From: Zygnema cylindricum
Lineage: Eukaryota > Streptophyta > Zygnematophyceae > Zygnematales > Zygnemataceae
Assembly (NCBI GenBank): GCA_037447655.1
Contig: JBBHKE010001952.1
Span: forward strand, 186,001 to 250,000
Direction: 5' to 3'
Length of the DNA: 64,000 bases
Positions 5,199 to 57,545 of this stretch are shown piece after piece (within the stretch, counting starts at the first letter, position 1; every line of letters starts with the position of its first letter). The notes under the pieces are model-generated. The model saw nothing but the letters and a program-made list of their open reading frames with translations, searched no databases and was not told the DNA's origin. A program made the translations under genes and the position numbers.

Positions 5199-8100
5199 CT
5201 AGTCACTTTTCAATTTTAATCCACAGTTTTCTCTGCAATAAATCAACTTAGGGGAAGGCACTGCTTTTGTCATCATGTCTGCAATCATTTCTCTATCAGT
5301 TTTATGAACCAGTTTAATAATTTTATTTTCTACCTTCTCTCTGACAAAGCTTAGTCTAATATCCATATGCTTAGCTTTGAAGTGATGTTTCGGATTAGCT
5401 GCAATAGAGATAGCAGCTTGATTATCACAAAAAACATTTTGAGTTCCAGACTTCATGAACCCAAGTTCTTCAAGAAGGGATTTAACCCACATTAATTCTT
5501 TGGTGGCAGCACAGGAAGCCATGTATTCAGCCTCCATAGTGGACTGAGCAACTACTTTTTGTTGCTTGCTACTCCAACAACATGCACCGGATCCAATTTG
5601 CAACACATATCAAGTCGTACACCTCCTTAAAGGCACATCTCCATAACTGGCATCACTCCAAGTGGTGATGTCAGTGTGCTCCCCTCCCAAATGCAACCAT
5701 AATTCCCTTGTCCCCACCAGATACCTCATCACCCTTTTCGCAGCCTCCCAATCTCTCTTTCTTGGTTCATTTAGATTTCTACTAAGGACACCTACAGCTG
5801 CAGCTATATCCGGACGGGTACAGTTCATAAAATAAATTAAACTGCCTACAATCTGCCGATAAGGGATATTTTCCATAAATTTTCTTTCTATCTCGTCCAT
5901 CTCATCATTAATGATGAATATTCCTCCCTCTTCACTCCCCTCACTCACTTTCTTCAAATCCATGGGAGTAGTACATCCGTTTGCTTTCTCCATTTGAAAT
6001 TTTTCTAGCATATTACCGATTGCTTCTTTTTGAGTGAGTCTTATAATTCTATTCCCTCTATCTCTCTTCATCTGAATTCCCAAAATGTACTTTGCTTCGC
6101 CAAGATCTTTCATATCAAAACTGCTTCTAAGATCCCGTTTTAGTTTGTTAATTTTATCTAAGGACTTGCTTAAGACCAACAAATCATCCACATAAATAGC
6201 AATAAATATCACTCCATTCTCATCCTCAAATAAATATATAGAGTGATCTGAACTAATTCTGATATACCCCAAACCGGTCAGAAATTCGTCGAGCTTTATA
6301 TTCCACTGTCGCGGGGCTTGCTTAAGCCCATAGAGTGATTTTATCAGTTTGCAAACTTTGTTTTCTTCCCCACTTTCCACGAATCCTTCCGGTTGCCTCA
6401 TGTAAATTTCTTCTTCCAACTCTCCGTGCAAAAAGGCAGTTTTAATATCCATCTGGTGGATTTCCATATCCTCCGCTGCGGCTATACTTAAAAGGATTCT
6501 AACAGAAGGAAATCTGACTACAGGTGCAAAGGTTTCTTCGTAGTCTATCCTCTCTTTCTGTGTATAACCTTTTGCAACTAACCTAGCTTTGTACCTCTCT
6601 ATGGTATTATCCGGGTTTAATTTAAGTTTAAACACCCACTTACATCCGATCGGTTTTCGGTCCGGTGGACAATCTACCAACTCCCATGTATTGGCTTCCA
6701 TGATAGAGGCCATTTCTTCATTTATAGCTGTGATCCACCGGCTACTTTCTGGAGTGTTTATGGCCTCTAAGTATGTTTGAGGTTCATCTGGGTGAGACAT
6801 CTTTGTGAGTTGGTTATTTACTTGTCTTTCTTGAAGTCGTTTACTACTTCTTCTTCCCCCTTCAAAATTGGACGCTGGTATGGAAGGCATTCTTGGGTTT
6901 CGTTTTGGGAAATTTTCAGCTTCCCTATCTTCCAATTCCGGTGTCTCATCAAGTTCCTCATCGGTTTCCACTTCGTATTGTGGCGTTGCCTCGGATGTTG
7001 TCCTTTCCTCCTTCTCCTTTGGTAGATCTGCAGATTTTTCTTTTTCTCCCTCTTCCTTCTCTTCATTTTCAAAGTCAAAGTCAGAAAACTGATCCGTTTC
7101 AAATCTGATTTTGACTTCCTTATTATATTTGAATGGATCAATGGACTTCTCTTCATTCATCACCACTATGTGTTTTACCAAAATTATATCTCTCTTTTTC
7201 AAGTCATACACTCGGTATCCTTTTGTGCTCTCATCATATCCTACAAGATATCCTGGTTTCCCTCTTCCCTCTAACTTCCATTTAGTCTTATCGGAATCCA
7301 AACTGTAGACTTGACTTCCGAACACTCTCAAACTAGACAAATCAGGCTTTCTTCCTGTCCACCTCTCATACGGAGTTTTCTCTTTATTTGCTGAAGTTAG
7401 GACTCTATTTTTGATGAAATTAGCATAGTTCATAGACTCAGCCCAAAACTGCAGCCCTATCCTCTTATCACTTAACATACTTTTGGACATATCTCCTAAA
7501 GTTCTATTCACTCTTTCTGCTACCCCATTTTGTTCCGGATTATAGGGAACAGTTTTCTCATGATGAATTCCTTCTTCTTTAAGATATTCTTCAAAATCCC
7601 CTGAGGTGCATTCTTTCCCATTATCACTTCTTATCTCTTTTATTGAGGTTTCATGTAGCTTTTCACTCCATACTTTATACTCTTTGAAACATCTTAATAC
7701 CTCTGACTTATGTCTGAGAAAGTATACCTTCGTGTATGTAGACCAATCATCTGTGATAGTTAACATCCATCTTTTCCCCCCATGTGAGGCATACCTAGCA
7801 GGTCCCCAAACATCAGTGTGATCTAGATCTAATACTTTCTCTCTCCTAAATGTGGTTGCCTTTGGAAATGGAAGTCTATGAATCTTCCCTTGGGCACATC
7901 CACTACAATCATCAAAGGTCTCATCATCTTCAAAAGTAATACCCTCCACTATTCCATTTTTCTTCATTTTCTTTAATCTATCTAGATGCACATGCCCCAA
8001 CCTTTTATGCCAAAGCATCATCTCACTTGCACACGAGTAGAGAACACTCTTTTCATTGCAAAGTACAATTCTGAACATTCCTTGACTGCCCTTCTCAGCT

Positions 8101-9635
8101 ATGAAATAAACCTCATTATCAAAGCTTGCTGTGAAGATTCCTTTCCTAGTTCCTGTTTCAAACTCCTTTTCATCTAGGACAGCTGTTGAGACTAGGTTCT
8201 TGCTAAGTTGTGGAATGTAAAGAACGTCTGAGAGTGTTACAATTGAGGCCTTTCCATCAACTAGAACCTTCAAGTCAACAGTTCCAACAAGACTTGTGGT
8301 TTCTACTCTACCATCTCCGTACTCTATCTCAACTGTTGGGATCTTTCTCAGTTTAGTGAACCACCGCTTATCTTTGCACATATGCATTGAAGCCCCTGAG
8401 TCTATGATCCACCCATCCTCGGGTGGATCCCTCTTACCTCCGAAAGCACAATTTTGTCTCCGTGGAATGTCGACATGCTTTTCAGTGTTTTTCGGATTAA
8501 GGAGAAGCTCCTCAAGCTCCTCTTCAGGTTCAGTTTTTCCTTCCACTTCCTCATCAAGAACTTGAGTCAGGAAAGCCTTTTTCTTTCCTCCGTCCTTTGA
8601 AGTTCCTTGACCATCTTTCAGTCGAAGATCTGCAAGTCTGACACAATCTGCCATATAGTGTCCCGGTTTCTTGCAGAAGTGACATAATCCTCCTCGAGAA
8701 GTTCCTCTCCCCTGTCTATCAAATCTGCCACCTCCTTGTCCTCTTCCACCAAAGTTTCGAAAAGGATCTTTCCCTCTCTCCTCATCACGCTTCCGCCAAT
8801 CAGCTCCTGCAGACAATGCTTGAACACTTGGACTCCCTCTCCTAAGCTCTATGGTGCTTTCTTTCACTAAAATCATTCCCACAGTGTCATCCCAATTCCA
8901 ATTGCTATCTCCTATGTCCTGCAATCGGTTAATGATATTCTCATACTCTTCAGGTAGTTTCATCATTAATGTGTTCACACTTTGTCTCTCAGACCATGAG
9001 TTACCTGCACTCTCTAACTCTCCAAACAATGCTCCTAAATAATTGCAATAATTATCCATACTTCCTCCCTTATAAGTATAAGCTGCAATCTTATTTTCTG
9101 CCAACTGTTGCTGCTGCAATGATCCACTCTTATATTTGTTAACTAGTGATATCCAAATCTGAGATGAAGATTTGACATGCATAAGGGGAATGGCAATGCC
9201 CTTTGCTACACTTTTAAGAATTAAGAGCTTAGCAACCTTGTCTTTGTAGTTCCACTTTTCATACTCTGATCTTTCGGTCTGAACCCTTGTCGTTGTTGCT
9301 GGTGGTGCTGCTGCCGGTATCGCCTTCGGCAATGGTGTTACTTGAGTTGCAACTCTTTCCTTTTCTCCTTCCATGACAATCTCTTCTCCTTCCTCATCTT
9401 TATCCTCGGTGATGGTGGCTGCTGTTCTACCAACTGTAGAGGCGGAGGTGCCAGAAAAACGTGTCCCTCCAAACCCAGGTGGAGGTGGGCATCGAATTTG
9501 TCCAGACACTATGCCCCATAAATGCTTCTCAAATAGTTCTCCCTCCATCATCATTTCCCAATAAAGAAAGTCTGATCCATCAAATATGGGCACCCTAAAG
9601 GGTGGGCCCATAACCTGAAATTCTGTGGTCTCCAT
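5199..9635 (-). pseudogene. Copia A Gag-Pol polyprotein with one nonsense codon
   Basis: This is one frame of 1478 codons, broken only by TGA at plus-strand 5610-5612 (codon 1342), where element C has GGA (Gly). The start ATG lies inside the 5' LTR, and the frame runs through the primer-binding site. Domains by approximate residue: Gag 1-310; zinc knuckle CHFCKKPGHYMADC about 315; protease DSGAS about 410; integrase zinc region (WHKRLGH...CSGC) about 538-590 and catalytic D, D, E near 602, 672 and 705; reverse transcriptase with YVDD about 1145; RNase H with SDASYGD about 1330 and DNQAAISI after the stop. All catalytic residues I can check are present. The stop cuts off the last 136 residues of RNase H. 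It makes the particle protein and enzymes for retrotransposition in cytoplasmic particles, with integration in the nucleus. Confidence 0.93.
9601..9615 (-). other. Primer-binding site of Copia A (half-tRNA type)
   Basis: In element orientation GGTTATGGGCCCACC directly follows the LTR. As I recall it, the plant initiator tRNA-Met anticodon arm reads GGTGGGCCCATAACC, its exact complement. Drosophila copia primes with the same internal region of this tRNA. The site is also gag coding sequence (V-M-G-P-P). Confidence 0.85.
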
Positions 9636-10506
9636 TGACCCACAGAATGAGCAGCCTATGTAAAGCCTCTAGGATAATATTTGCCCCTTCTACTTTCCCG
9701 TTGAATAAGCGCCGCCCAGGCACACAAATATACTGACCACTCTCACCCTTGTGAGGACAAGACTCCCCTGAGTCAAACGCAAAAAGAATCACTGAATTTG
9801 CTCACCCGAGCAGTAAGTTATGGCTGGTCAAAGATGACCTTTATAGTTACAAGCTCTCTTAGAGAGAGAGGTACCTAAATATTACTAAGTCTCGGTCTGC
9901 CTACTCACGACTACCTACTATTAAACCCTAGTCCAATAGGAACACTATAAAGTACAAGAAGGTACAATGGGCGATGTACTTATTGTACAACTATTGTACG
10001 ACAAGGTCTACAAGGTGACACCTGTCATATCGGAAGCCATGGTTCCTCCTCCCATCTTCTCCGGTATCAAATAATGTGGCGCCACGTGGCACCGCGTGAC
10101 TCTATATCCGTATGCCGCCGAAAAGCTCACTTCGCGTGGCGGCTTTAATGCCGGCCGTCCGATCAAAACATATTTTACACGGTTCAGATTCGCGTACATG
10201 CAGAAATTGCTCATTTTGGTTAGTCTGGTGTTAATTAGCTGTTTCGTTAATGTTTATATATTTATGAAACCCGTCACGTGTGTCGTTTCGTAACGCCTTA
10301 ATGGTTAAGGCGTTAGGCTTTAAAGGGTCTAGAGGTCACAGGTTCAAATCTAGACCTAGGCATCATTTTATCCAAAATACCCTTATCTGCAAAAACTGCC
10401 ACTTTCTAAATATGGCGGCAGCCATGGCGCGCCTTTGATCCTCACTCTCTTTCTTTAAAACAAAACTAAAATAGGGAAGTGAACTATTAATTACCTCTTT
10501 TCAACA
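9616..10506 (-). repeat. 5' LTR of Copia A
   Basis: It drives transcription of the element. A TATA-like TATAAAG in element orientation lies around plus-strand 9838-9844. The first gag codons lie in its last 20 bases. A GTAC cluster lies at 9952-9999. Confidence 0.95.
10287..10361 (+). other. tRNA-like module inside the 5' LTR of Copia A, antisense
   Basis: Second copy of the A-box/B-box module described at 4966-5040, identical in the boxes. Confidence 0.6.
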
Positions 10507-14380: not shown

Positions 14381-17300
14381 TCAAACAAATTGCGAAAAAA
14401 ATATTCTCTCCCATAGCCCAAAGGAAAAAAAGTAAGTACCTTTCGTGGCAGCCGTGGCTGTCTTACGCTCCTCCTCTCCCAGTCGTCTTCTTAAAGTGTT
14501 GATAATAGAGCCAAAAAACATGGCTAGCACGGTACAAGTGAGAGTGATAGTATTGTAAGGCATACTAAAATCGGGGAGAGGAAGAGGAACCACAAGAATT
14601 TCTGTGTACACTCGAAACGGTTTCCATGTCTGAGAAAAACACAGTCCGTTCAACACAAACTGTCAAAACAGAACAGAAGACGTTTTTCTCGGGTTTTGGC
14701 GGTACATTTAAATTCATCCGTTCAGTTACGATATTAATAAGATCCAAATTTCTCCAATGAGAAATCAGAAACTGAGAAATTTCCTCATGCAACTTTCTAG
14801 ACCCAGTTTATTGCCATATTTGTAACATGCTTCCTTTTCCTCTAAAGCTCTGACCTGCATGCTCTGTAACAAAGGGCTCCGCGTGACAGATGTCACATTT
14901 TCGTTGGTAGACCAATCGGTTCGCATGGAAACCGTTGGCAAAAAATGAATGATGGCCGACGGAAGATCCATGCCTCGACTTGCATCCGAGGGATGTTCAT
15001 CCACATACAAATAACCCTACCACAAGCAGAAAAACAGAAAAACCTTTCAAATGAATCAACAGAAAAAAAAAAAGGTTCAGTTCCATCTCCACAGACAAAA
15101 CTCACAAAACCAGCAGAACACAAAAATCTATCAAAATCTTCTGGTATGTAACCGGGAGAGATTTTTGCAGTCTAAAAGTTTTTGGAAACCCACTTTGTCG
15201 AACTTGATGGACAGTGTGACAGATGTCACATTCAGAGGAATCTTCAGATTTAAGTCTAGTAGTGTCGGTTTTTTGCGATCCTCTGCCAACTCAGCGTGCG
15301 CCCGTGTGGCGACCTCCCAGAGCGCCACCTGGCGGCCATCAAATCTAACTTCCAAAGTGTGAAAATAAAGACGAATAAACCATGGAACGACTTGAAATAC
15401 GGAAACAGTTCTACTCTCAACATCCCGGTTTTCATGCGAGGAGCATTCCTTTTTCAGTTTCGGTTGTTCTAAAGGCTCCTCCTGGAACTCCCTCCACCCC
15501 TGTTCCTCATCATCAAGAAGATCGAAGAAATTTCCTTCTTCGACTTTAGCGAGTTTTCCCAATTTTTTGTCCTTATCTCCGTTTGCTTGAAATTTTATAG
15601 TAATCCCACCTCTCTCATTTCCATATCCAGTAATAAACCGTTGAACGGAAAACGGAACGGCCCGTGGTGCCCATTGCAGTGGTTTTCTCCAAACCATTTT
15701 CACATCTAACAAACCAACTCTCTCATTCTCTCTCCCAGGTTTTGATTTTTGTTCAGTTCTCGCTTTCCACACATCAAACAGAACCAAAACTGACCCTGTT
15801 TTCCCCATTTTCCCCTCACTATCGTCTTCCGGAATCAAAACTTCATTTAATATTACTTCACTTTTGGGAATTATCTCAAACACTTCCCCTGACTTTGCTA
15901 AACCTTGCCAATCCTCCTCCTCTATGCTTTTCCTCAGTTCTCCCGCCCCTCTCTCTTCCTCCCCTCCAACTTCCTTAGCATGTAAAGTTGCTTCAAGTAG
16001 ATTTCTCTCAAGTTCAACATAAACTCGACTCTCATCTGCCAAAAGACATGGACTGGAAATTTCTCTTTCAAATAAAGACGAAACAGACCAATCAGGTAAT
16101 AGCTTCGGTGTCCTTCCTCCCTCTCCTGGTCTTCCTCCACTCTTCCCTCTCTCCCCTCTGACTTTGACTTTTGGCTCGAGCACTAAAGTAAGAGTTTGAA
16201 GCAACGTAATCTCGATTGAATCGTCATTTAACCCTACCCCTTTAGTACTAACATGCATTCTCATAGAATGATAATTTGCACCGTAAATTGTCGGTCGATG
16301 GAACAGAGTTGCAAGACCGGCTTTATCTCGACAGGGAAGAAGTTTTAACCAGGGAGTTAAATTTTCTGTGCAAACAGCTTCTCTGGGCAGAGCCCCATAT
16401 CGAACAGAATTTTCTGCATTCAAGTTTGGTTTGTCTCTACCTTCATTTTCTCCCTTCTCTATTTCTTCTCCCCAACTTTCCTCATTTTTACATGTCCGTC
16501 CAGGACCACCAGTTGGATTTTCTCGGTTGCCGGTGTTTTCTTTGTCTGCCCGAGTTTCTCGGTCAGGATGAAAAAAACTTTTCGGAGGTGTAGCAGTGGT
16601 TGCCGCAGATTCAAGAAAATTGAGAGAAGCACAAAATAATCCTGACAGGGAATGAGTCAAATTTCGCCACATGGCGTCCACCTGGCGATTCCCGAAAAAC
16701 CATTGAACCTCTTCAGACAAGAATGTTGGTGAAAAAAAAACAAGCAAATAAAGTAGAACTAAAAGACAAAAGATAGGATTTGCGCAAAAAATACGACTTC
16801 GGCAACAAGACCAGATTTAACAAAAGCTGAACACAAAATCAAAAAAAGTAAAAAAAAAATCCTTCAATTTCGCAGATTTTAACCTGAAATTCCGCTCATA
16901 CAAGCGGAACTGTATGAGAGACGATGAAAACAGAAGCTAAAACAAAAACTATAACATAATCAACAACTCAATGAACACCGTACAAACATCAAATCGGAAC
17001 AAATTATGACCCCCTGTAACTTTAAAAACCAGGGTTGGAAATCCAGGCCTGGTTGGGAGAGGAGCCGAACCAGGCCCAGAGCTCCACTCCTGGCGGCTTG
17101 GAGTTTTCCCGTGTGATGACGTCAGCAGAGCCCCAACTCTGTGACTGCCAACGGCCGCGAGTGAAGCTCAGCTCCGCAGCACGGATTCGTTCTTGCCGAA
17201 CCTGGGAGGGGGAGAGGGACAGGGAGGGGGAGGGGGAGGAGGAGGGAGAGAGAAAGAGAGAGAGGGAGAGGGAGACATCATTCAAACGCAAGCCATACTT

Positions 17301-18446
17301 AATCTCTCGTCGTGCAATAAAAATTTCTATCTCACAAAAGATAAAACATAAATGACCAATGGATACGATGAAAGTAAGTGTACTTTTACTATTATTATAA
17401 TTACAATTGTTCTTGATATGGTTATTATCATTACTAGTTTGCATTATAAGCATAAAATTAAGGTTTTTTCCAAGTTGATTGCAATTTAAAATCGCTAACA
17501 AATGATAGTGTAGTGACTATTGGTAAAAGTATATCGTAAAACTTATGTGTTACAAAACTGCCTAGTCTCCCAATTCCTATGTCCAATATTCCTCCTTAAA
17601 TATTTTACAGTCCATGTTTCACAATTCAGGTTCTTGTTTCTTGTCCAATGTTGTTTTTCCTTCCCATCGAAACTCGGTGGTCCTCATCCAATGTTTCCTT
17701 TTCCATTTTCACTCTTTATGCGGTAAGTTAGATGCATTATGTTTTGTTTAGGATCCTCATCCTCCAATGGTCTATGTTCTATGCGTTGTGCCGTATGCTC
17801 CATGACCCACCATCCTTGTTCCTTTACCCCACCCAATGTTTATGTACGTTCTTTTCCAATAATTTATGTTTTATGTTCCACGCGTTACTCAACATTTTGG
17901 TGTTTTGTGTTTTATGTTCCACGCTCCTTGCACCTTATCCCATTTTCCACGTTATGTGTTCCAACTGGAAAAATGTGATCTGGTTCCTTTTTCCATATCG
18001 GACTCCATTCTGGTTGCTCCACTTTCAAAAACCATCATTGTATTCGAAATTTGCAGAAAAAGAAAAGTCATTGCCTTTCGTTTGCAAAAAAAATAAATAA
18101 TATATTCTATATCCTCCTCAAGCACACACAAGGGTCACACGTACGGAGCTGCTTCACCCACCAACTGCTCAACAGCCTTCGGAAAAATGGTCGTGTGGCG
18201 CCCTCCATGCGCGCCACGTGGCAGCAGCGTATTCGAGAACAGGAAGTGTGCCAGAATTTTGCCATCTGGAAGAGGCCTCAGAAGAAGCTCCTCTGTAAAC
18301 CTTTCGGGGGAACGTTTTGAAACGTCGGGCTCGGTTTCCGAAGAACACGAGGAGTCGTATTTATGGCGGATGTTAAATTCTTTCGGAAAGTTTAGGGCGC
18401 AAGAAGTTGAGAGAAGGAAAGAAAAGAGCAGCCAGACAGCGACCAT
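14381..18446 (-). CDS. PIGT: GPI transamidase subunit PIG-T (Gpi16), five exons
   Basis: ER membrane subunit of the complex that attaches GPI anchors to proteins. Exons on the minus strand: 18446-18162, 17201-17049, 16681-15194, 15016-14855 and 14629 to about 14381. Introns 1-4 join in phase 0 and restore the family sequence at each junction. Exon 1 starts with a signal peptide (MVAVWLLFSFLLSTSCAL) and reaches the motif LLLRPLPDGKILAHF. Exon 2 has FTRGRW and KPPGVELWAWF. Exon 3 has NLTHSLSGLFCASLNFLES, CTENLTPWLKLLPCRDKAGL, the ITGYGNERGG box and FQVVPWF. Exon 4 has VDEHPSDASRG. Exon 5 has the membrane helix segment (DFSMPYNTITLTCTVLAMFFG) and RRRLGEEER. About 778 residues, longer than the roughly 580-650 usual, because exon 3 carries charged inserts. 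Intron 2 appears to use a GC donor. The true 3' end may lie in a further exon, since GTAAGA and GTACTT donors follow GEEER. Confidence 0.9.
17202..17275 (-). other. Pyrimidine-rich 3' end of PIG-T intron 1
   Basis: On the coding strand this is an extended C/T tract ending CTCCCAG before exon 2, a long polypyrimidine tract at a splice acceptor. The intron spans 17202-18161 and holds nothing else I recognise. Confidence 0.6.
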
Positions 18447-19549
18447 GGCTGTGGCTCCAGCTCCCGACGCAAAGGTTTCGCTTTACTGTAGTGTTGTTCA
18501 AATCGTGCGATTTTTTCAAATTTTCCGATTGAAAAGTATAATTCGTGACGATTTTGAAAATCGCAAAAAAACGTCTGCTGTAAACTGGAACTAGCAATTT
18601 ACGGGAAAAGTACAATAATTCCCGTAATATGTACGGTTTTTTTACGGATATGTACGGAATTCGAGGAAATGATACGTCGTAGTTATTGGTACTTTCTGCC
18701 AGTGAACTGAACAGCAATATCACGGAACTTGTACGTCTCTTCATCGAAAATGTACGCACATTTTCGAAAAGAGACGTTGAACGCCACACTTTTTTCGCGC
18801 GCGTTTTTTTATGTCGTGCAATGCTTAATGTGAAAAATGTCATTTGTACATGGTCTATACTTTATTTTTTTCCAGTCGTGTGCTGTCTGGTAGATAGAGA
18901 GAGAAGGCAAAGAGAAGGCGGCCATGGCTACGTGTCAGATAGGGTAAGACATACGGAATTTGATAAAAATGTGTCTAAATTTGATAAAATTGTGCCCTTA
19001 CAAACGTTCGAACCCGGGGGTGACAAAGTCTAATCTTCTTTCACATTCTGTGCTACCAGTTGATGAAGGAATTCCGATACTTAAATGAAGTGTCATATTT
19101 ATTTAAACATTTATAATACTTTAGAGCTCATTTAACGGGAAACTTACAAACGGCGCTATATGTAAAAAAAAAATTGTTTTAATTTGACGAAATTGTACAG
19201 ATGAAAATTCATTAACGATTTTTTACAATTTGTTCAAAAGGTTCAATGCGTTCGTTACGTATAATTCGTCACGATTGAAACGTTCGCACTAATCGCTATG
19301 AACAACTATGCTTTACTGGTTCGGTGCACAATTATAAAGTGGCACGGTATAAAATACAGTGCACGCAAGTTCTGTATATTTTCCCGCCATTTCAACCTTA
19401 CGCACAACAATTTGTATATTCAAACGACGACTTTTGTCGGTTCATTACACGGCAATATAATAATTAAAAACTGCAAAGGCAATTATTGTATATCTTTAAA
19501 GTGTTGTGTACCTGTAAGAAACTCATCGCGATAAAACCGATACCGATAG
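18447..19549. other. PIG-T upstream region, no gene seen
   Basis: Probably contains the PIG-T promoter just above 18446. No coding similarity on either strand. Confidence 0.4.
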
Positions 19550-19834
19550 TTATCGATTATTGAAGGTTTGTACTTTTGCCGTAATAAATTCTTTTTCCTT
19601 GAAGCTGAGTGGATACTCCTTCTGCCAAACAATCGCCGTCTCGTCTATCAAATCATTACGAAAGGGGGTCCCTTTGTAAATGCCATTGTCGGTCTCTGAC
19701 CAAGAAAACACCTGTTTGTTCTCCTCTAACGGTTTGGACAGCAGGGCATTCTCTTCTAACGGTTTGGACAGCAGGGCCTTCTGCTGGGGTTCTAGCTGCT
19801 CCTCTAAGGTCCAATCCATCTTCTCGGGTTCCAC
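19550..19834 (-). pseudogene. N-terminal reverse transcriptase fragment of the Gypsy-DNMT element
   Basis: The frame reads like the entry to a Ty3/Gypsy RT: KQVFSWSETDNGI, then IVWQKEYPLSFKEKEFI, resembling the usual stretch ahead of the first RT motif. It stops at 19550, where unrelated sequence begins, so no catalytic residues are present. A direct duplication of about 30 bp (19722-19782) repeats the motif LLSKPLEEN. Confidence 0.6.
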
Positions 19835-20094
19835 CGCTGCCCATACTTCGAAGGCCTACCCCAGCGGGAGATGTCTAATTCCAACTCTACTTGTGGGTCT
19901 ACTTCTCCTCCTCTTGTTAGGACGCTACTACTGACAATTTTCGCTTAGCTGTCCCTTTCCGAGCCCCCGCTCCCCCCCACTGAGGAATCCCTTGATTGGG
20001 GTGAAATGCTCGGAATGGAAACTTTTGATGAGAAAGTTTTTCTCCTTGCCTCTCTTCCCCCCTCGAGCTGGAAGTTGGCATGTGTTGCTAACAA

Positions 20095-21163
20095 CTATGG
20101 GGCTTGAAGGTAACTAGCCCTGGACTGTGGAGATTGTAGACTATCAAAGGCAAGAGAACGTTTTAACACCCATGTGATTGCATTCAAATCCATGCTCTGT
20201 TCGAGTAGGCTGCACCTCTGGAGGTATGATATACCTGGGGCGGTCGTTGTTGTTGGTCGAAATCCCATTGCCTGTTCTCGTTCCTCGACTTTCGGTGTTG
20301 TCCAGACTCCCGCCTTGCTGTCGAATATCATTCCTGTCGCTCCTTTCCGATATGCAAGGGAGTTGGGGAAGAAAACCAGGGTTGGCAAGGCTCGCCTGGG
20401 GGCCTCTGCTTTGTTGCATCAGAACAACAAGGGACGATCAGCCTTGGTCACTGGAGTGGCTATCCGCCCTGGTCCGAGGATTTGTTGCAGAGTTGTCTAG
20501 GATCTATTTTGTGGTTTTGTAAGAGTTGGTGGAGGAAAAAAAAAAGATTAGATTTGTCCAGTAAGTCCGAACTCGGTGAGCCTTTAATCCCAGCTGGGCA
20601 GCATCAAAATCAAGCGGAGCCCCCAAAACCTGCATAACTTGGTTCCAGCTATTGGCGACTTGTTTTCTTTCATCATTTCCCGCGTGGACATTTTCTAAGA
20701 CGTACCCCACTGGTGAGTCTTGCAACTACTGCAGCTATGAAATTAATTTGATCATCTGGAAGAAGGTTCGACTTCGGCTGTCCTAATGCCCTTCACCTTT
20801 TCTTGCTAGAGAGTATCCCTGACACGACCATCCTGCTACTACCACATCTACTCTTTCCAGCATGGCAAGATGGGGTTCCAGGATGTTGTCAACATTTTTG
20901 GGATGACTTTGGTGAACTCTGCAGATTGAGGATATGAGAGGATGTTGGGGATACAATTGGTGAAGTTGTTGTAGTCGGTGTTCACTGACAGCTCGGGCTT
21001 CGGGTGAGATTTCAACGGCTACATAAGACTCCACCTTGTATCCTGCCTTCAAAACAGCTTCTAGGTCCGAGTTGATTTCAAAGAAAAGTGAAAGTATTTG
21101 AAGTCTAGAATCAGGAACTGATAATAACACCACCTGTCGATTGAATTTTCGGTCTTCGGGCAA
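20095..21163 (-). pseudogene. Retrotransposon-borne cytosine-5 DNA methyltransferase domain
   Basis: About 355 codons show C5-MTase motifs in the canonical order I, IV, VI, VIII, IX, X, so this is not the rearranged DRM type. Motif I region: LSLFFEINSDLEAVLKAGYK, with the usual glycines replaced. Motif II: VAVEIS. Motif IV: AGWSCQGYS, catalytic Cys present but the preceding Pro is Ser. Motif VI: LENV. Motif VIII: QLGLKAHRVRTYWTN. Motif IX: EREQAMGF. Motif X-like: LEQSMDLN. Three in-frame TAG codons (20783-20785, 20735-20737, 20726-20728) and one frameshift between 20504 and 20388 make it inactive now. Its active ancestor would methylate cytosine in DNA, possibly the element's own copies. It lies downstream of the protease and upstream of RT. 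Confidence 0.8.
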
Positions 21164-21315
21164 AACCTCCGAAGGTTCTTACCGAGGCTTGGAGGTCTTG
21201 TTCTTTGTAAAAACAATCGAACAAGACTGGTCCACTTCCCGCCGAAGTGTGGCTATCTGTGATAATCTGGTGTGGTATCCCTCGTCCCACCGCTTGGAAA
21301 TAGGGAATTGCTATA

Positions 21316-21800
21316 TCACCTCGGCAATGTCTGTGGCTTTGGCGAGCAGTTCTGAAGTGTGGGTGGCATAAACAAGATAGCATCCGGAAACAAAAACATT
21401 GGTATTCCCCCAATTCCATAAATCCAAGGGTACCACCACCTTGGTCCCCTCGGAATCTCACAGTCCTGAACGGTAAACCGCTCATTCCACACACTTAAAC
21501 CCATATTCAACCTTTTCGAGGTGGCCATCCCCAACAGAATATCAAATTGCTTACCTTCCACCACTAAAAAGGGAATCTGGATTCGAACTCGCTGACCTGC
21601 GTCATCGGAGAACTCGATTAACATAACCTTGATGATCCCGTGAACCAGCCGGCTCCCACTGGTAACCGAGCTCATGCATATGTTACTAGGGCAGATCTCA
21701 GGTAAGAGTTCCTTGGGCATCTGTTGCAAAGGCGTAGTTGTTATTAGAATTGGGAGTGCCTTGGTGTCGACCACAACATCATGGTATCGTTCTTATCCAT
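21316..21800 (-). pseudogene. Retroviral-type aspartic protease of the Gypsy-DNMT element
   Basis: VVVDTKALPILI stands where D-T/S-G-A is expected, so the catalytic triad glycine is Lys. It is followed by about 75 residues ending FDILLGMATSKRL, the usual hydrophobic I-L-G box near the end of the fold. The frame breaks before the methyltransferase. The catalytic loop change implies loss of activity. Confidence 0.6.
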
Positions 21801-22559
21801 TGAGTTTGAAATTTCCGGTCCGGTTGAGGATAAGCGCCATATATAACGTCTTATACTCCCTATCCATCATAGGGGTATTGGGATCAGTGGACAAAAAGAC
21901 TGAACTGGGCTGGTCTGGTCTCTTTTCTCCCTTTCTGAGTGAATTTCCTCTCCGAGTGCTTGAATGAGGATATCTTCAAGCAGGTTATGGGAGGAGGCCA
22001 GTGTTTTTACATGGGTGAGGGCGTAAGGTATGAGGTGCCTTACTACTATAACTGCTGGTTTGGAGGAAGGAGGTTGAGTTTTTGGCGACAAAGTGGGGGA
22101 ACCTGGTTCTGCCGGTTTCTTCTACCCCCCCCCCCCCCCCTTTGCTTCCTCTATTTCGTTGTCTGATTTCGGTGCAAGAGGCGTTTCTAGTGTGTTATCT
22201 TACGGGCATTTCGCCATATACCGTTTAAACTAATCTTGGTTGCTCTATTTTTCGTCCTCTTCTGCCTTCTTTCCCTTCCCCTTTTGTCTATTTGTTTTGT
22301 AGTCTTCGAATCCGAGAGGCAGTTTCTTCACGATAGTGCGAGGGGGATTGGTAGGTTTGATCCCAAGATCGATGTTGTCGTTCAGAATCACCGCCCCTGG
22401 TGTGAAAGACAGTGGTCACGTGACCTTTCTGTGATGGTCTCTTTGGGCCAGTCTTTGCCTGTCCTTTCTCTACTCCATTGTGGAGTTTCAAAGTTGTCTG
22501 CGATTTTCTCCCACGCCGACATTCAAGGCTTTAGACATAAAGGTACAAACATGATGAGC

Positions 22560-22990
22560 ATTAAGAGGTTCCATATCCCACCCTATAACATCGTCATCGT
22601 CTGTACCCGCCATGGCTTCTTGTTGAAGCTCTACTAGCTTCTGTAGTAACTCTTGTTTTCTTCGCTGGAGTTTTTGAGTGGCCGTCAAAGTAAGAGTCTG
22701 GGAGGCAGATCCTAAATGCAGTGCTACCAATTCTACAGCCATCGCGGCCAGTTGCTTGCTCTGTTGATGGATGATATTCTCCGGGGTGAGTCTTGCGTGA
22801 CCTATTGGCGTTTGTTCTGGTTAGTCCATGGTGCGACGCCCCCAAGTGTGAAGGAGTTGAAGGGGGAGAGGATTCACGGCAGTTTACCCTCCGCCAGTAA
22901 ATAGAGCGTAATGCATCATCTCCTTTGGGACTCCATTCTTCCGAAAACATTTCCCCTCCTTGTGTCCTAGGAAACCGCAAGCCTCACACT
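22560..22990 (-). pseudogene. Gag zinc knuckle and adjoining segment of the Gypsy-DNMT element
   Basis: The minus strand encodes CEACGFLGHKEGKC (about 22985-22940), an exact CX2CX4HX4C knuckle for binding RNA. A frame change follows, then a glutamine/lysine-rich helical segment (KLQRRKQELLQKLVELQQE). Confidence 0.6.
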
Positions 22991-23192
22991 TGGAGCCCTC
23001 GGTGGTGCATTTGCTCCTGGTCTTATCATAGATATGCGCATCATCGAATTTTGGGAGTTTGATTTGTCGCAGCTTAGCTTGAGTTATATTGGCAGTTGCG
23101 GACCAAGGAGTTGGAGTCTAACTGTCATTCGTTAGCGATGTTTTGTCTTCCGATCATCCTCTTTGTTTGCGTTCTATATGTTTCCTTGTCAT

Positions 23193-23703
23193 TTAACCTC
23201 TCTGTTTTTCCCATTCCTTCTGCTTTAGGGCAAGTTTGGGTTTGAGCTTTTGTGGGCAGATCTTCCATTCATGATCGGTTTCTTGGCAGTTGAGAAAATT
23301 GTAGAGGAAGACCCTCTCATCTGCCCCCATGGCCGGCTCGGCCTCCTTGTCTGCCCTCGGCTTTCCTTTAAGCTTCCGCAAAACCTGCAGTTCGACGTGT
23401 TCCTTCTGGTGCAAAGAGTTCTCTCCAGCGAACCCTGCGAAATAAACGCGAGCTTTTCCTGTGACTTTTTTTTCTCGGGCTTCATTGTGGACAAGGTGGT
23501 AGAGTTTCATGGCGACCAGCGAAATCTCCTTAGTAGATGGATTGATATCTTGGATGGTCAAGCCTACAATCCAATTGTCGAGGGCAGTCTTCTCCGTGGG
23601 CCCGAAAGAATTCCGGACTGCGATGTAATATTTAGTGGCTATAGCGATAGGTCGATTGTTGAAAGTTTTGTCTTTTGAAAGAGGCTTGACAGTGTGCTAA
23701 AAA
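23193..23703 (-). pseudogene. Gag remnant of the Gypsy-DNMT element
   Basis: A continuous frame of about 165 codons. It ends in a damaged knuckle (FLNCQETDHEWKIC, the first Cys replaced by Phe). I see no other hallmark; the Gag call rests on position and the knuckle. Confidence 0.5.
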
Positions 23704-23937
23704 GAGTTTGCGGTGTCTCTATTTTCAGACACTGATAGCAGATTCATTCCTCTCGGTGTAGAGAAACCTCCAGGTGTTGAAAACAGTAGTGCAAGGTGTA
23801 GGGTTTGCCACCATCCTGGTGGCACCCCGAGCGTCCCGGAGAGCCTGCAGCTGATTGGCATACGTTAGCCCATGGGCTTGTAATTTCAAGTCTTAAGTCA
23901 ATGCAAGCGTTAAAGGAGCGTTCGCAACCGCGACCAA

Positions 23938-24755
23938 TGCAACTCTGAGACCTCCATAGGTCCTCAGAATGGACAGCTTGCAAGAAGCCTCTAAGATAAC
24001 CCTGACCCCTTCGTGTTTTTGGAAGAATAACTACCACCCTGGCAGAAAAAAACTCTGACCACCTACACTCTTGTGAAGGCAAGACTCCCCTGAGTCGATA
24101 GCAAAAAGAATCTCTGAATTTGCTCCCCTAAGCAGTAAGTCATGGAGGGTCAAAGTTGACCTTTTGTACAGAAGCTCTTTGGGAGAGAGGGTCCTATCTA
24201 CCAAATTTTTCTAAATCCTATCTCTCTCCAAAACTCTATCTACTGACGTACGGCACCAATCATATAACTGTAGTGTACTAAAAGGTACAGCTGCTGATGT
24301 ACTTTATGTATGAACATTGTACGACATGACCAAAATGTCGACACGTGTCTTATCTGGATTCGTTTTCGTAATCCTTAGAGATGCCGAAATCTTATGTCGT
24401 GGTGCCACGTGTCATCCGATGTGGCTCCGACCATAAACCGCCGAAATCTTCCTCCGGGATCTTGACATTCTTTTTGGCCGTCTGATTCAATGTCAATTTC
24501 AATCATAGCCGTCATAAATATTTGCGATGTATTTGTTTCGCTATCGAAACAAATGCGCGATACTTATTTCTTCTCCGTACGCGTAATCCGTACTTTTTTT
24601 AACTGACTTTATGTATCCCGTATATAGTTGTCGTTAAATGAATTAGCCTATGTGTTAACGTTTATATATTTGGTAAACCGAATATCGTCTACCACAGATC
24701 CTAGACTAAATGGATGAGGCTATCGGCTACCGGCGGCATTACCCATCCGTTCCTT
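23938..24755 (-). repeat. Truncated Copia LTR remnant of the C/G type
   Basis: In element orientation it ends ATGGAGGTCTCAGAGTTGCA, nearly the same as the LTR ends of C and G. It contains the GTAC-rich region and the A-box-like part of the tRNA-like module, then stops at about 24755 before the LTR start. No internal region is attached, so it is a truncated solo LTR or a broken element. Bases 23704-23937 beside it show no recognisable feature. Confidence 0.75.
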
Positions 24756-35954: not shown

Positions 35955-36045
35955 CGAAACCAGGATTTGATCCTAGTACCTACCTTTCGTCAAACTGGCG
36001 ATAGCCGGTAGCTTTAGCCGTTTAGTTAAGACTAGTGTTAGGTCA
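35955..36045 (-). other. tRNA-like module in the LTR of element G, antisense
   Basis: Minus-strand B-box-like GGATCAAATCC (plus 35963-35973) sits in a T-arm-like hairpin CTAGG-ATCAAAT-CCTGG, with an A-box-like AACTAAACGGCTAAAGC upstream. Confidence 0.55.
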
Positions 36046-36779
36046 TATAGGGTTTGATAAATCTATAAATGTTTCCACGTCGACTAATTCATTTAACGGT
36101 AACTATTTACTGGATACATAGATTCGGTTATATAAAATACGGATTAAGGTACGGAGAAGAAACAAGTACCTCGCACTTGTTTCGATAGCGAAAACGAAAA
36201 CTGCGCATTTATTTATGACATCTAAGATTGAAATCTGCATTTAATTCGACGGCAAGAATGAATGCCGAGATGAAAAGGATTTTGGCGGTTTGTGATCATC
36301 GCCACATCAGATGACATGTGGCACCATGATATTGGATTTTGGCATCTCCAGGGATTACGGAAACAAATTCGGATATGACATGTGTCGACTTTTTGGCCAT
36401 GTCGTACAATGTCCGTACAAAAAGTACACAGGCACCTATACCTTTCTTTACGACACAGTAATATGATTGGTGCTGTACGTCAGTAGATAGAGTTTTATAG
36501 AGAGGTAGGACTTAGAAAATTTGGTAGATAGGACCCTCTCTCCAAGAGAGCTTTTGTACAAAAGGTTAACTTTGACCCTCCATAACTTATTGCTCACGGG
36601 AGCAAATTCAAAGATTTTTTTGATATTGACTCAGGGGAGTCTTGCCTTCATAGGGGTGAAGGTTGTCAGAGTTTTTGTCTGCCAGGGTGGCACTTATTCA
36701 TGCTGAAACACAAAGGGGTCAGGGTTATCCTAAAGGCTTATTTCAAGCTGCTCTTTCTGAGGACCTACAGAGGTCTTAG

Positions 36780-38282
36780 AGTTGCAAGTTATGGGCCCAC
36801 TCTCTAGGATACCCATCTTTAATGGAACTAGCTTCATATACTGGGAAAGTATGATGACATGAGCTCTATGCGAGAAAAGGTTTTGGGGGATAGTGAGTGG
36901 ATGAGTGGGGCTTCCATCAAGTCTTGGCATCCATCCAGTGTTTGGAGGAGGCAAATTCACTAGGAAAGCAGATCCATCTCCAACGGAGGAGACAAAGGAA
37001 GTGGAGTTGGTGGACAAAGGAAAGGAGAAGGAGACAACCACACCAATAGCAACTTGTTCGGCATTCATGTCATCTATTCCGAGGAATGAGGAGAATGATA
37101 CTAATACCTGGGACTTCAACAATATGGCCGCAAAGCACTTCATTCTCCGCCATCTTACTCAAAGGCTTGCATCTCCTCATTTGCAGGTAGAGAGGGCATC
37201 TGATCTTCGGGTGGCTCTCATAGAGATGTACTGAAGTGGTACGATTGAGCAACAACAGTTGGCTGATCAGAAAATTAAGGAGTATGTATACAAAAGGGGG
37301 AAGATGTTGGATTTTTGCAATAAGCTTGCTACACTTTTTATGGAACTAGAGAGTGCTGGAAAAGTATTTAGTGAAAAGGAAAAGGTTAACTATTTACTGA
37401 TGAAGTTATCGGATGAGTTCGAGAACATAGTCAACCGTGTAGAGGACTAGGCAGACTCAAAGTGGATATGGAACTTAGTGGAAGGGATGATTCTCGTTCG
37501 GGAGAATACGATTGAGATCCGAAAAGGAGGAAAGAGTAGGCAAGCGTTGGCAACCGGAACTGATTGGAGGAACAATGATTCCAAGAAATAGGCTGGAAAT
37601 TATCGAGCGGAGGGGAAAAAAAATTAGAGTGAGGAGTTCGGACCAAGGACTCCCAAGGGTTTGTGCCATAAACCAGGGCACTATACGGCTGAATGCACTA
37701 AGTTAACCGATCTGCGGTTAAAAGAGAGGCAGACCCATGGACCCTTGTGTAAAAGAGGAAAGTAAAAAGCCCTTGTGACACAGGTACATGAGGCGGAATC
37801 CGAGGACGAGGACGATGAACTCCCATTAGATGAGGAGTTGTAAGCGAAAAACGAGGTCGAAATTCCACGAAAGCAGAAATGTACTTTCGCTAGATTGAAA
37901 GGTGAAACAGGCTGGATTGTAGACTCAGGTGCATCCATGCACGCGTAAAGATAAAAACCTATTCAATAAGATACGAAAGATTCCCAACGGTTAGATAGAG
38001 TACAAGGATGGGAGGATAGTCACTATTACTCTTGTAGGATCGGTAGATCTAAAAGTGTTAGTAGAAGGAAAGACATCCATAGTTACATTCTCCGATATAT
38101 TGTTTATTCCGAAGCTGAACAAAAACCTCTTTTCTACGTCTGTATTAGATGATAAGGGTTTTGACACTAGCACTTGGAAAGGAGTCTTTGGTGCTAGTTT
38201 TGAGGAGGAAGTTTATTTTACTGCTGAAAAAGGTAGCCAAGGGATGTTTAGGCTGATTTTAAGCAATGAAAAGAAGAAACTT
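36780..38282 (+). pseudogene. Gag and protease region of element G, first part
   Basis: Homologous to element C throughout: QVMGPLSRIPIFNGT, NTWDFNNMAAKHFILRHL, MLDFCNKLATLFMELESAG, then a protease region with DSGAS partly preserved (about 37920). Many stops (for example near 36859, 37232 and 37448) and a damaged zinc knuckle. The start ATG in the LTR is mutated to ACA. Interrupted at 38282 by element F. Confidence 0.8.
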
Positions 38283-46456: not shown

Positions 46457-46667
46457 TGTAGAAACTAATGGTTTTATTAGTATTTTCTAGGTCTGAAAAG
46501 AAATATAGAAGTCGAGGCAGTCTATCTCTAACTTCTCTCTCCAACTCTCAAACTTGTCGCAGTCACTGAGAAATTGGAGAGGAAGCTAGAGCCATGGCTA
46601 CCTTGGCTATCCTGAGGTTTAAGGGAATTTTATATTAGGGTTTATATATTTAATTAAAATGTATGTG

Positions 46668-46760
46668 CCGGCGGCAGGATTTGATCCTTGTACCTGCCGG
46701 CCGCCAGTTAGGAAGTAGCCGGTAGCCTTAGCCGTTTCATCTAGCGGTAGTGTTACCTAG
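46668..46760 (-). other. tRNA-like module in the 5' LTR of element C, antisense
   Basis: Minus-strand B-box-like GGATCAAATCC (plus 46677-46687) with an A-box-like TAGATGAAACGGCTAAGGC upstream. The second copy is at 52069-52161 in the 3' LTR. Confidence 0.5.
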
Positions 46761-47121
46761 CATATAGTTTGATAATTATTTATATATGTATACAAGCGAT
46801 AAACCATTTAACTAGAATTAATTACGGGATACATAGATCCAGTAATATGTAATGTACAACTTACGGTACGGACATAAATCAGTACCGCGCATTTGTTTCG
46901 TAAATGAAACAAATACCGCGCATGTATTTATTACGGCTACGATTAAAGCCGAATTTAATCGGACGGCCGGGATTAGCGCCGAGATCGCGGAGGAAGATTT
47001 CGGCGGTTTGTGGCCATCGCCACATCGGATGACGCGTGGCAAAATTCCGTTGGATTGTGGAAACTCCGGAGATTATGGCACCGAATCCGGATTTGACATG
47101 TGTCGACATTTTGGCCATGTT

Positions 47122-47170
47122 GTACAATATCCGTACATAAAGTACACCGGCAGCTGTACTTTTGCGTACG
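47122..47170. promoter_or_regulatory. GTAC cluster in the LTR of element C
   Basis: Five GTAC tetramers between about 47122 and 47169, repeated in the 3' LTR about 5401 bases further on. Confidence 0.45.
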
Positions 47171-47485
47171 GAACTCAATTCTGATTGGTTCCGTACATCA
47201 GTAGATAGAGTCTGTGAGAGAGATAGGACTTAGAAAAATTAGAAGATAGGACCCTCTCTCCCAGAGAGCTTCTGTACAAAAGGTCAAATTTGACCCTCCA
47301 TAACTTACTGCTCAGGGGAGCAAATTCAGAGATTCTTTTTGCTATCGACTCAGGGGAGTCTTGTCTTCACAGGGGTGAAGTTGGTGAGAGTTTTTGTCTG
47401 CCAGGGTGGCAGTTATTATTGCTTAAACACAAAGGGGTCAGGATTATCCGAGAGGCTTCTTGGAAGCTGTCCACTCTGAGGACTT

Positions 47486-50400
47486 ATGGAGGTCTCAGAG
47501 TTTCAGGTTATGGGCCCACCCTCTAGGGTGCCAATATTTAATGGAACTGGCTTCATATACTGGGAAAGTATGATGATAGGAGCTCTATGCGAAAAAAGGT
47601 TTTGGGGGATAGTGAGTGGACGATTGGGGCGTCCATCAAGTCTTGGAATTCCTCCAGGGTTTAAAGGAAGCAGATTCACCAGGAAAGAGGATTCACCTTC
47701 AACGGAGGAAACAAAGGAAGGAGAGGTGGTGGACAAAGGAAAGGAGAAGGAGGCGACCACACCAATAGCAACTGGTTTAGCATTCATGTCACCTATTCCG
47801 AGGAACGAGGAGAATGATACTGAAACCTGGGACTTCAACAATATGGCGGCAAAGCACTTCATCCTACGCCATCTCACTCAAGGACTTGCATGTCCTCATT
47901 TGCAGGTAGAGAGGGCATCCGATCTTTGGATGGCTCTCATAGAGATGTACCGAAGTGGTACGATTCAGCAACAACAGTTGGCTGATCAGAAAGTTAAGTA
48001 GTATGTATACAAAGGGGGAAATATGTTGGATTTTTGCAATGAGCTTGCTACACTCTTCATGGAGCTAGAGAGTGCGGGTAAAGTTTTTAGTGAAAAAGAA
48101 AAAGTTAACTGTTTACTATTGAAGTTACCTGATGAGTTCGAGAACATAGTCAACCGTGTGCAGGACTTGCCGGACTCAAGGTGGATATGGAACTCAGTGG
48201 TAGGGATGATTCTCGTTCGAGAGAATACGATTGAGATCCGAAGGGGAGGAAAGAGTGGCCAAGCCTTGGCAACAGCGACCGATTGGAGGAACAAGGATTC
48301 CCGGAAACCAGTCAGAAACTATGGGGGTAGGGAGCGGGAAAAACAGGTTGACGAGTTCGAACCAAGGGCTCCCAAAGGTTTATGTCATTTTTGTAAGAAA
48401 CCTGGGCACTATATGGCAGAGTGCACCAAGCTAACCGAGCTTCGGTTAAAGGAGGGGCAGACCGGTGGTACCCCGAGAGGAAAGAAAAAGGCCCTTGTCA
48501 CACAGGTACTTGAGGCGGAATCCGAGGACGAGGACGATGAGCTCCTTTTGGATGAGGAGTTGGAGGCGAAAACTGAGGTTGAAATTCCACGAAGGCAGAA
48601 ATGTGCTTACGGTGGATTGAAAGGTGAAGCAGGCTGGATTATAGATTCAGGTGCCTCAATGCACATGTGTAAGGATAGACACCTGTTCACTAAGATAAGA
48701 AAGATTCCCACCGTAGAGATAGAGTACGGGGATGGGAGGATAGTCACCAGTACTCTTGTAGGATCGGTAGATCTGAAAGTGTTAGTTGAAGGAAAGACAT
48801 CCATATTAACATTCTCCGATGTATTGTTTATTCCGGAGCTGAACAAAAACCTTATCTCTACATCAGTATTAGATGATAAGGGTTTTTTCACTAGCACTAG
48901 GGAAGGAGTCTTTACTGCTAGTTTTGAGGAGGATGTCTATTTCATTGCTGAGAAAGGTAGCCATGGGATGTTTAGGCTGATCTTAAGTAATGAAACGAAG
49001 AAACTTTATTATGCTGGTGTTCATGATATTATGATGTGGCATAAGAGGCTTGGGCATGTGAATCTAGATAAGTTAAGAGAGATGAAAAAGATGGGAGTGG
49101 TGGAAGGGATTCAGTTCAGTGAGAGTGATGATATAAGTGATTGTAGTGGGTGTGCTCAAGGTAAAGCACACAGATTACCCTTTCCAAAAACAGCCACCTA
49201 CAAGGGAGAAAAACTTCTAGATCTAGTACACACAGATATTTGGGGACCGGCTAGAGTGCCCTCACCGGGGGGGAAGAGATTTATGATGACTATAACTGAT
49301 GATTGGTCTCGGTATTCCCGAGTATATTTTTTGAAAAACAAGTCAGAAGCTGAGGACTGTTTTAGACAATATAAAGCATGGAGCGAAAAACTCCATGAAA
49401 CTCCAATCAAGAGAGTAAGGAGTGACAATGGTGGAGAGTATACTTCTAACCAGTTTGAGGATTTTTTGAGGGAAGATGGTGTTCAACACCAAAAGACAGT
49501 GCCAGAAAATCCTGAACAGAATGGGGTAGCTGAAAGGTTAAATAGAACACTAAGTGATAGTGCTAGAAGTATGTTGTCGGATAAGAAGATAGGAAAAAGG
49601 TTTTGGGCAGAAGCAATGAACTGTGCTAATTACCTCAAAAATAGAGTTCTTACTTCAGCTATAAAAGATCAAACACCTTATGAGAGATGGACAGGCCGGA
49701 AACCAGACTTATCTCATTTAAAGGTTTTCGGCAGTCAAGTATTCAGTCTAGATACTGATCGGTCCAATTGGAAGCTAGATCCTAAAGGAAAACCGGGATA
49801 CTTATTAGGATATGATGAGGATGTTAAAGGATATAGAGTTTATGATCTAAAAAGAGAAGATATAATCTTAGTAAAGCATCTAGTAGTTATGGATGAAGGA
49901 AAGTCTGTGGATCCCTTCAAATATACAAAGTCAGTAAAAATCAGATTTGAGTCAGAAAATTCTGATGACTTTGAGCTTCCTAACTATCCAGGTTTTAGAG
50001 ACGATGACATTCTTGCAGGAACAAATCAGACCGAAAAGGACTCGGCTGTGGAAACTCCAGTGACAACTCTACTCGAAGCGGAAGACGTGGTGGAAATTGA
50101 TTTGGAATCAAGGGATAGGGGAGAAGCCGAGTTTGTTCGAAAGAATCCACGAGAACCATCTATTCCGGCCTCATATTTTGAGGGAGGGAGGAGAAGTAGC
50201 AAAAGACTGCAAGAAAAACAGGTTAATAACAAGGTAACTAAACTATCTCATCAAGATGAACCTGAAACTTATCGAGAGGCGATGACTTGTCCAGAAAGAA
50301 ACCGGTGGAAGACAGCCATCAATGAGGAGATGGCTTCAATCATGGCAGCCGATACTTGGGAGCTGGTGGACTGTCCACCTAACCGAAAACCAATCGGTTG

Positions 50401-51844: not shown

Positions 51845-51857
51845 AAAATAAGGGGAG

Positions 51858-56752: not shown

Positions 56753-57040
56753 GACTTCAATGGCCTCTTCGGAAGTCTTTCAGGTGTCGTCACATCTTTT
56801 CGAGTCGAAGTCGGGGTTCTTCTTCTGTAATTCTTCCGTAATCTCCTCCTTCGCCTCCTCCATGGGTTGGACGACCGCTACACCAACAGTTTCCCCTTTT
56901 CTGAGTGCCCTCTTAAGCTGTAAAGCCGAAAGTAGGCGTCCCTCTTCCGATCCTTTACCAGCCGCTCCCGCTTTTACCTCAAACTCTTCTTCGCCCTTCG
57001 TCACTCTCATGGCCCGACCTTTCCAATCGATAGTCGGATT

Positions 57041-57532: not shown

Positions 57533-57545
57533 AACCTCCTTATCC

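Follow-up and report, generated by a model that had tools for sequence, protein, structure and literature searches.

Cytosine DNA methyltransferases carried by retrotransposons have been described before, and the closest described system is KnitGypsy-Dnmt3 of Klebsormidium nitens, reported by de Mendoza et al. in 2018 (PMC5890265, main-text parts). Gypsy elements that bear a DNMT3 are, with it, already known as a kind. According to the same main-text parts, two SymbioDIRS-Dnmt3 copies from Symbiodinium established de novo CG methylation in yeast, methylation of the cDNA was proposed for these elements, and KnitGypsy-Dnmt3 was inactive in yeast, a result that the authors call inconclusive (PMC5890265). 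Passages of a 2025 survey place some DNMT3s in LTR elements (written Copia) and in DIRS elements of streptophytes and dinoflagellates (PMC12344493), and a 2019 paper describes, in the excerpt available, such DNMT3s as missing from land plants such as tracheophytes (PMC6338049). The context UAG-CAR-YYA is that of stop codon readthrough in TMV, and the parts available of the paper describing it cite rice Gypsy elements (RIRE2) as readthrough candidates, so that readthrough in Gypsy elements is not new as such (PMC2754532).

Here, we analyzed a 64,000-nucleotide stretch of Zygnema cylindricum DNA (the window), in which an earlier reading of the letters had placed a methyltransferase (MTase) inside a Ty3/Gypsy element. 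That original prediction had named de Mendoza et al. as describing retrotransposon-borne DNMTs in dinoflagellates and a charophyte, and the main-text parts of the paper bear this out (PMC5890265).

Results

The window copy

The feature on the minus strand of the window is a decayed, end-truncated Ty3/Gypsy copy, and it belongs to a family whose Pol bears a DNMT3-like MTase as its first domain. Positions 23937-19563 could be aligned along their whole length to L024 (66% DNA identity), a less damaged copy from the same genome that served as the reference for the protease, MTase motifs IX-X and RT start of the window. The copy opens with a gag remnant (22530..23937, minus strand; tblastn against L024 gag, E=2.4e-120) that has lost its 5' part and contains stops and frameshifts, and the stretch after gag matches L024 at 4.5e-41 in tblastn. 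A CCHC zinc knuckle, CEACGFLGHKEGKC (22947..22988, minus strand), was recognized within it by a pattern counted six times in the window against 0.07 expected per 64 kb, and the same knuckle is present in L023 and L024. This is followed by a broken retroviral-type aspartic protease region (21397..22100, minus strand), with E=1.3e-77 to the L024 protease ORF, which in turn matches PF13650 at 2.1e-4, just under the Pfam cut-off. At the boundary between protease and MTase stands the UAG of a conserved UAG-CAA-UUC context (21311..21313, minus strand), and behind it the broken DNMT3-like C5 cytosine MTase domain (20050..21124, minus strand), which is split over two frames (21124-20546 and 20493-20050). 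The end of a spacer and the start of RT (19562..19864, minus strand; 107 bits to the L024 segment upstream of RT) close the copy, 17 residues reaching further into the next L024 segment (2.6e-4).

From the MTase to the RT start, the alignment with L024 (E=0) consists of three pieces of 328, 246 and 107 bits, and the 246-bit piece contains motifs IX-X. This protein alignment indicates that the protease and RT start had been called correctly from the letters, and both are confirmed solely against L024: the motif IX-X piece, the protease and the RT start of the window gave nothing significant against Pfam, PDB, phage MTases or another Gypsy element of the window. Stops and frameshifts are spread over gag, protease and MTase, the gag is cut at the end of a Copia LTR (23938), and nothing is left beyond the first RT residues (19562). 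The window copy is dead. AlphaFold models of its protease and MTase pieces were uninformative, with mean pLDDT values of 45.7 and 37.7.

Outside the Gypsy element, a Copia LTR fragment (23938..24732, minus strand) abuts gag with its 3' end (..CA), and it shares 82% identity with window positions 35999-36786 and with the LTR region of the Copia element that spans 46457-52871. A recombinant chimera, with the Copia LTR and the gag start fused to a Gypsy remnant, was considered and rejected, because matches to the same LTR end also terminate at four other places (L012/L032, L037, L041/L058 and L052); at L012/L032 and L041/L058, the neighbor of the LTR end is a different stretch of the element, and the recurring end looks like an ordinary LTR boundary. 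An alternative genetic code with TAG read as Q was also discarded, since the window contains kilobase ORFs that stay open when read with the standard code. The CpG observed/expected ratio was 0.64 in the remnant, 0.75 in the window and 0.42 in an open Copia ORF, and gave no methylation-decay signal.

Identity of the methyltransferase

The predicted C5-MTase on the minus strand, between the protease and the start of RT, was confirmed by PF00145 and by the L024 alignment. The PF00145 match depended on bridging the stops: it reached E=2.3e-10 when the piece was read as one frame with X at the stops and a few residues dropped, and 6.6e-9 when in-frame TAGs were read as Q. Stops and shifts interrupt the reading frame, and the plain window ORFs accordingly had no match. 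The MTase pieces also matched PHROG 116 at 4e-15 and PHROG 363 at 5e-14, with the phage enzymes aligned over motifs I to VIII at 26-28% identity in the rows listed. Scans of IMG/VR with four window pieces returned no relatives, and a motif pattern search there gave eight loci, three with an MTase and five apparently by chance, in which RT was looked for with the window RT-start piece as the sole query.

Among PDB chains, HhaI ranked first for the window piece with X at the stops (2.7e-5, with DNMT3C at 2.2e-4), and DNMT3C/3A ranked first for the read-through piece (1.7e-5 and 4.8e-5, with HhaI at 1.6e-3). The best chain for the L024 MTase was DNMT3A (1.6e-14), and the best DRM chain stood at 1.2e-3; DNMT3A was also best for the MTase of L020, a copy of a second family described below (1.2e-10), for which no DRM chain was listed. 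No DNMT1 chain fell within E 0.01 in the PDB search with either of these two domains. The predicted canonical order of the motifs was found along the L024 frame as I-IV-VI-VIII-IX-X, i.e., unrearranged; in the DRM class, motifs VI-X precede I-V. As judged from these comparisons, the MTase is DNMT3-like. A DRM origin, which the original prediction had held to be excluded, is disfavored by the motif order and the PDB ranking of L024 (DRM 1.2e-3 versus DNMT3A 1.6e-14) rather than strictly excluded.

The individual motifs named from the letters fared unevenly. The patterns of motifs IV (GWSCQGYS, 20833) and VIII (AHRVRTYWTN, 20581), which were picked after the sequence was seen, were absent from all 30 Markov simulations of 64 kb; in the window, the motif IV pattern matches once more at 11987 (plus strand), seemingly by chance. 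ENV-like strings are common in the window and no commoner than expected (seven seen versus six expected), and motifs IX-X were recovered via L024 only. Motif I and PCQ are altered, with LFFEINSD in the window versus LFSGISSD in L024, and SCQ versus PCQ.

Copies in the host genome

The host assembly searched comprises 352.8 Mb in 2689 contigs. PF00145 gave at least 123 scored matches from 782 candidates, the 131-aa MTase piece of the window at least 150 (itself included) from 1115 candidates, and the L024 MTase at least 114 rows from 1910 candidates; the first two lists combined cover at least 242 places with an MTase match. The closest other copies to the window piece were 76-77% identical among the matches listed, and many copies in that list carry further stops. 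Identical rows on C507/C1662 and C2179/C2675 suggest that some contigs may be duplicates, and the number of separate insertions is thus not exact. At least one PF00145 row did not come from an element: L018 (1498-1791) is a chromomethylase-like host exon with 4e-29 to PDB 4fsx, a chain listed as DNMT 1 that we take to be the maize chromomethylase, and the host therefore apparently encodes a CMT of its own in addition to the enzymes borne by the elements.

The RT search of the assembly yielded at least 94 rows from 4578 candidates, equivalent to 92 places, as two places were split. A listed MTase was found 0.9-1.95 kb upstream on the same strand in 54 of these rows, and the control gave 0/94 rows with a listed MTase downstream or nearby on the other strand. 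A later MTase list added eight rows, without a new control, and so the MTase and RT segments of the genome do occur together, in at least 62 of the 94 rows (61 of 92 places). In the other 32 rows, without an MTase among the matches listed, the domain may be missing, damaged or simply not listed; in one of them, C370, a stretch of 601 bases contains faint similarity (3e-4) to the C-terminal part of the MTase. Another RT row of the assembly (G000, C961:71101-72480) lies inside a 5743-aa open frame that may be nothing but a run of N. The identities of MTase and RT co-vary over 13 loci (r=0.96, Mantel p=0.0002), and the MTase starts 1485-1527 nt ahead of RT in 12 of them, the distance in the thirteenth, L031, being taken from a partial match. 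Together, the upstream association and the correlation favor a single ancient capture, after which MTase and RT descended jointly. A host DNMT pseudogene that came to lie beside a retroelement by chance would agree with the fact that the window alone gives its protease and RT no statistical confirmation; however, set against 4.4 kb of continuous homology with L024 and the upstream MTase in so many RT rows versus none in the control, this explanation has a negligible probability.

Two element families

Twenty 10 kb regions were fetched for copy anatomy. A search of the host genome for intact copies had been proposed, and open Pol frames of 1520 and 1525 aa were found in family A and a single open frame of 2395 aa in L020, a member of family B. 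Copies with an open Pol have the layout protease-UAG-MTase-RT-RNaseH-integrase-PHD-like finger, and in family B the MTase occupies the same position with no stop ahead of it, the order MTase-RT-RNase H-integrase-PHD being common to both families. In L024 (family A), gag with a zinc knuckle is followed by stops and a shift, the protease (motifs VVDTGA and FEILLGM), the in-frame TAG and the 1520-aa frame, with the MTase at residues 70-249, RT at 601-763, RNase H, and an integrase with an H2C2 finger; its C-terminus is PHD-like at E 0.0044, under the Pfam cut-off. L023 resembles it; the frames of 1520 and 1525 aa are open from, or just after, the UAG, and in both copies gag and protease are separated by stops or shifts. 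L020 is a single 2395-aa frame with two zinc knuckles, a protease-like MDTGA recognized by eye only, the MTase at 942-1078, RT at 1496-1647, RNase H, integrase and a PHD finger, the latter found in three family B proteins (1.5e-9 in L020; 1.8e-11 and 3.5e-10). The Ty3/Gypsy order, with RVT_1, rve and H2C2, was found in L024 from the protease ORF and then from RT to integrase, and in L020 from RT to integrase; the window copy reaches the RT start only. The MTases of L024 and L020 share 42% identity in BLAST (E=1e-88) and 39% over the aligned set, and their RTs about 56-57%; on these identities, family B stands as a separate and strongly diverged family within the genome.

The UAG before the methyltransferase

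The protease/MTase junction was compared at 28 places (24 distinct sequences), which were chosen as MTase/family matches and not at random. The stop is TAG at 27 places and TAA at one, and the six bases behind it are CAATTC at 25, with TAATTC, CATTTC and CAATTG found once each. The TAG at 21313 is common to the other copies seen and is therefore not a product of the decay of the window copy. This UAG context also occurs in L031 and L034, which are 38-42% identical to L024 over the junction; between subfamilies, MTase and RT start show saturation at synonymous sites, and the Gln after the stop is never CAG, nor the Phe UUU. CAA-UUC is also coding, and thus part of its conservation may be due to the protein. 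Compared with the tobamovirus UAG CAR YYA, the family A UAG CAA UUC fits at five of six downstream positions, the last base being C, not A. An RNA hairpin behind the UAG was inconsistent among the 24 distinct sequences, and one of six folded copies was significantly stable (L034 4210-4309, z -3.5), the other five not.

At the junction, the stop is missing from L020, L021 and L022 of family B, and readthrough is therefore not general. That family B manages without it, and that many copies hold other stops, would suit a UAG that is plain decay spread by master elements, with no recoding signal. We regard this as decidedly improbable, since the UAG and its next six bases are kept at 27 and 25 of the 28 places across subfamilies with saturated dS, and another stop is seen in just 2 of the 28 aligned junction peptides; a leaky stop is the reading that we prefer.

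Selection and age

Selection was analyzed in 12 family A MTases (66 pairs) that were picked as stop-free, which is a bias, and their three groups were defined after the distances were seen. Between groups (39 pairs), dN was 0.16-0.21 and dS ranged from 1.9 to infinite; within groups, omega was 0.09-0.59, with one pair identical. These values indicate that the MTase is under purifying selection. When seven copies were compared with L024, dN was 0.17-0.19 in the MTase and 0.03-0.06 in the RT start, i.e., amino-acid change is faster in the MTase. Swapping of MTases between subfamilies by recombination was also considered and found to be unsupported, dS being saturated in MTase and RT start alike.

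The faster change of the MTase would be in line with a fold that is no longer catalytic and contributes to Pol by binding nucleic acid or by aiding folding, and so would two substitutions: motif I of L024 is FSGISSD, not FxGxG, and thus lacks the usual glycines, and L020 has ECQ in place of PCQ, which makes catalysis uncertain. Yet the catalytic Cys, EN(V/I) and AHRVR are retained in both copies, and the motif that deviates in one stays intact in the other. A structural role alone is thus unlikely in our estimation, though it deserves some weight, and we favor an MTase that still modifies DNA.

Direct end repeats were seen in 3 of the 20 fetched regions, all of family B (100% over 434 bp, 99.7% over 366 bp and 100% over 262 bp). 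They were read as LTRs clipped by the ends of the stretches, and their near identity suggests that family B inserted recently; no end repeats were seen for family A in the 20 fetched 10 kb regions. L020 and L021 agree at 99.9% over a length of 7067 bases and represent two insertions or duplicate contigs.

Neighboring sequences

Pieces of a PIG-T / Gpi16 (GPI transamidase) gene (15131-18446, minus strand) lie just downstream of the remnant on the same strand, with matches at 18446-18135 and 16816-15131 and one piece in a 561-aa open frame; this PIG-T is presumably plant-like. Upstream of it, a short palindrome (18733-18777) is possibly a MITE. The L024 element and the window remnant are each followed, immediately past their 3' ends, by a repeat (69-81% identical; 9133-9900 in L024 and 18630-19266 in the window), and the matches of L023 and L033 to L024 stop at about 9133, before that repeat. 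The window also contains a recently inserted Copia element (46457-52871, plus strand) with an open frame of 1280 aa and end repeats that agree at 99.0% over 1014 bp, and another at 5613-9668 (minus strand) with a 1352-aa open frame and flanking repeats matching at 99.2% of 902 bp. A further Gypsy remnant (55970-58131, minus strand) has gag, protease and RT matches, its RT being 34-39% identical to those of the MTase-bearing families.

Discussion

We read the window feature as a decayed copy of a Gypsy element in which the UAG is leaky, MTase-Pol is made by readthrough, the cDNA is methylated and the PHD finger reads histones, and we give this reading a probability of roughly 0.6. The UAG would be a leaky stop of the tobamovirus type, mostly yielding Gag-protease, with MTase-Pol made by the minority of ribosomes that read through it; MTase and RT would thereby be packaged into the particle at a fixed ratio. 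The MTase, we infer, would methylate the element's own cDNA before or at integration, and the PHD finger may read histone tails at the target and guide integration. The pre-methylated cDNA would disguise or restrain new copies, and the element would in this way survive in a methylating host.

The MTase might instead act on element RNA or on host chromatin at large, for example on the host methylome or in marking silenced copies. For the LINE family, de Mendoza et al. bring up methylation of RNA, and they also raise host methylome effects (PMC5890265, main-text parts); in the present genome, the enzyme could be provided in trans from at least 240 places that have an MTase match. An MTase in frame with RT and integrase, behind an apparent low-dose stop, fits the cDNA better, however, and its nearest solved relatives are DNMT3 DNA enzymes; we therefore consider action on RNA or host chromatin to be rather improbable and retain methylation of the cDNA as the preferred reading.

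More speculatively, and with doubts on our side, the two families may represent one lineage with a write-and-read kit, in which a DNMT3-like writer acts on the cDNA, dosed by readthrough in one family, and an integrase-borne PHD finger is the reader, the element setting the chromatin state of its new copies. Host methylation normally silences such elements, which raises the question of whether an element with a selected methylase profits from methylating itself. The genome offers many copies, two old families, recent insertions and a compact candidate translational switch, making this question testable.

Comparison with known systems

Like KnitGypsy-Dnmt3, the present elements are Ty3/Gypsy elements with an unrearranged, intronless DNMT3-type domain in Pol, several copies and purifying selection; KnitGypsy-Dnmt3 is described with DIRS-like repeats, and the two were compared by description, not by sequence (PMC5890265, main-text parts). 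No mention of a UAG context, a PHD finger, a second family or readthrough was found in those main-text parts. SymbioDIRS-Dnmt3 and SymbioLINE-Dnmt are likewise retrotransposons bearing a cytosine DNMT, but they are DIRS and LINE elements, not Gypsy (PMC5890265, main-text parts). A Gypsy-type integrase with a C-terminal PHD finger, there besides Ulp1, is also found in Ginger1-9_HM; unlike the present family, Ginger1 elements are DNA transposons, and an MTase is unmentioned in the parts available of their description (PMC2836005). In contrast to RIRE2 and the tobamoviruses, the stop here sits behind the protease and gates an MTase, and the sixth downstream base is C. The phage DNMTs of PHROG 116 and 363 belong to the same MTase family, but to bacterial viruses and without a retroelement context. 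The host genome analyzed here, with 353 Mb, is far larger than the K. nitens assembly of about 0.1 Gb. The open-access literature, mostly at the level of titles and abstracts, contained no report recognizable as the present family. Unless KnitGypsy-Dnmt3 proves to have both, the conserved UAG and the PHD finger set this family apart.
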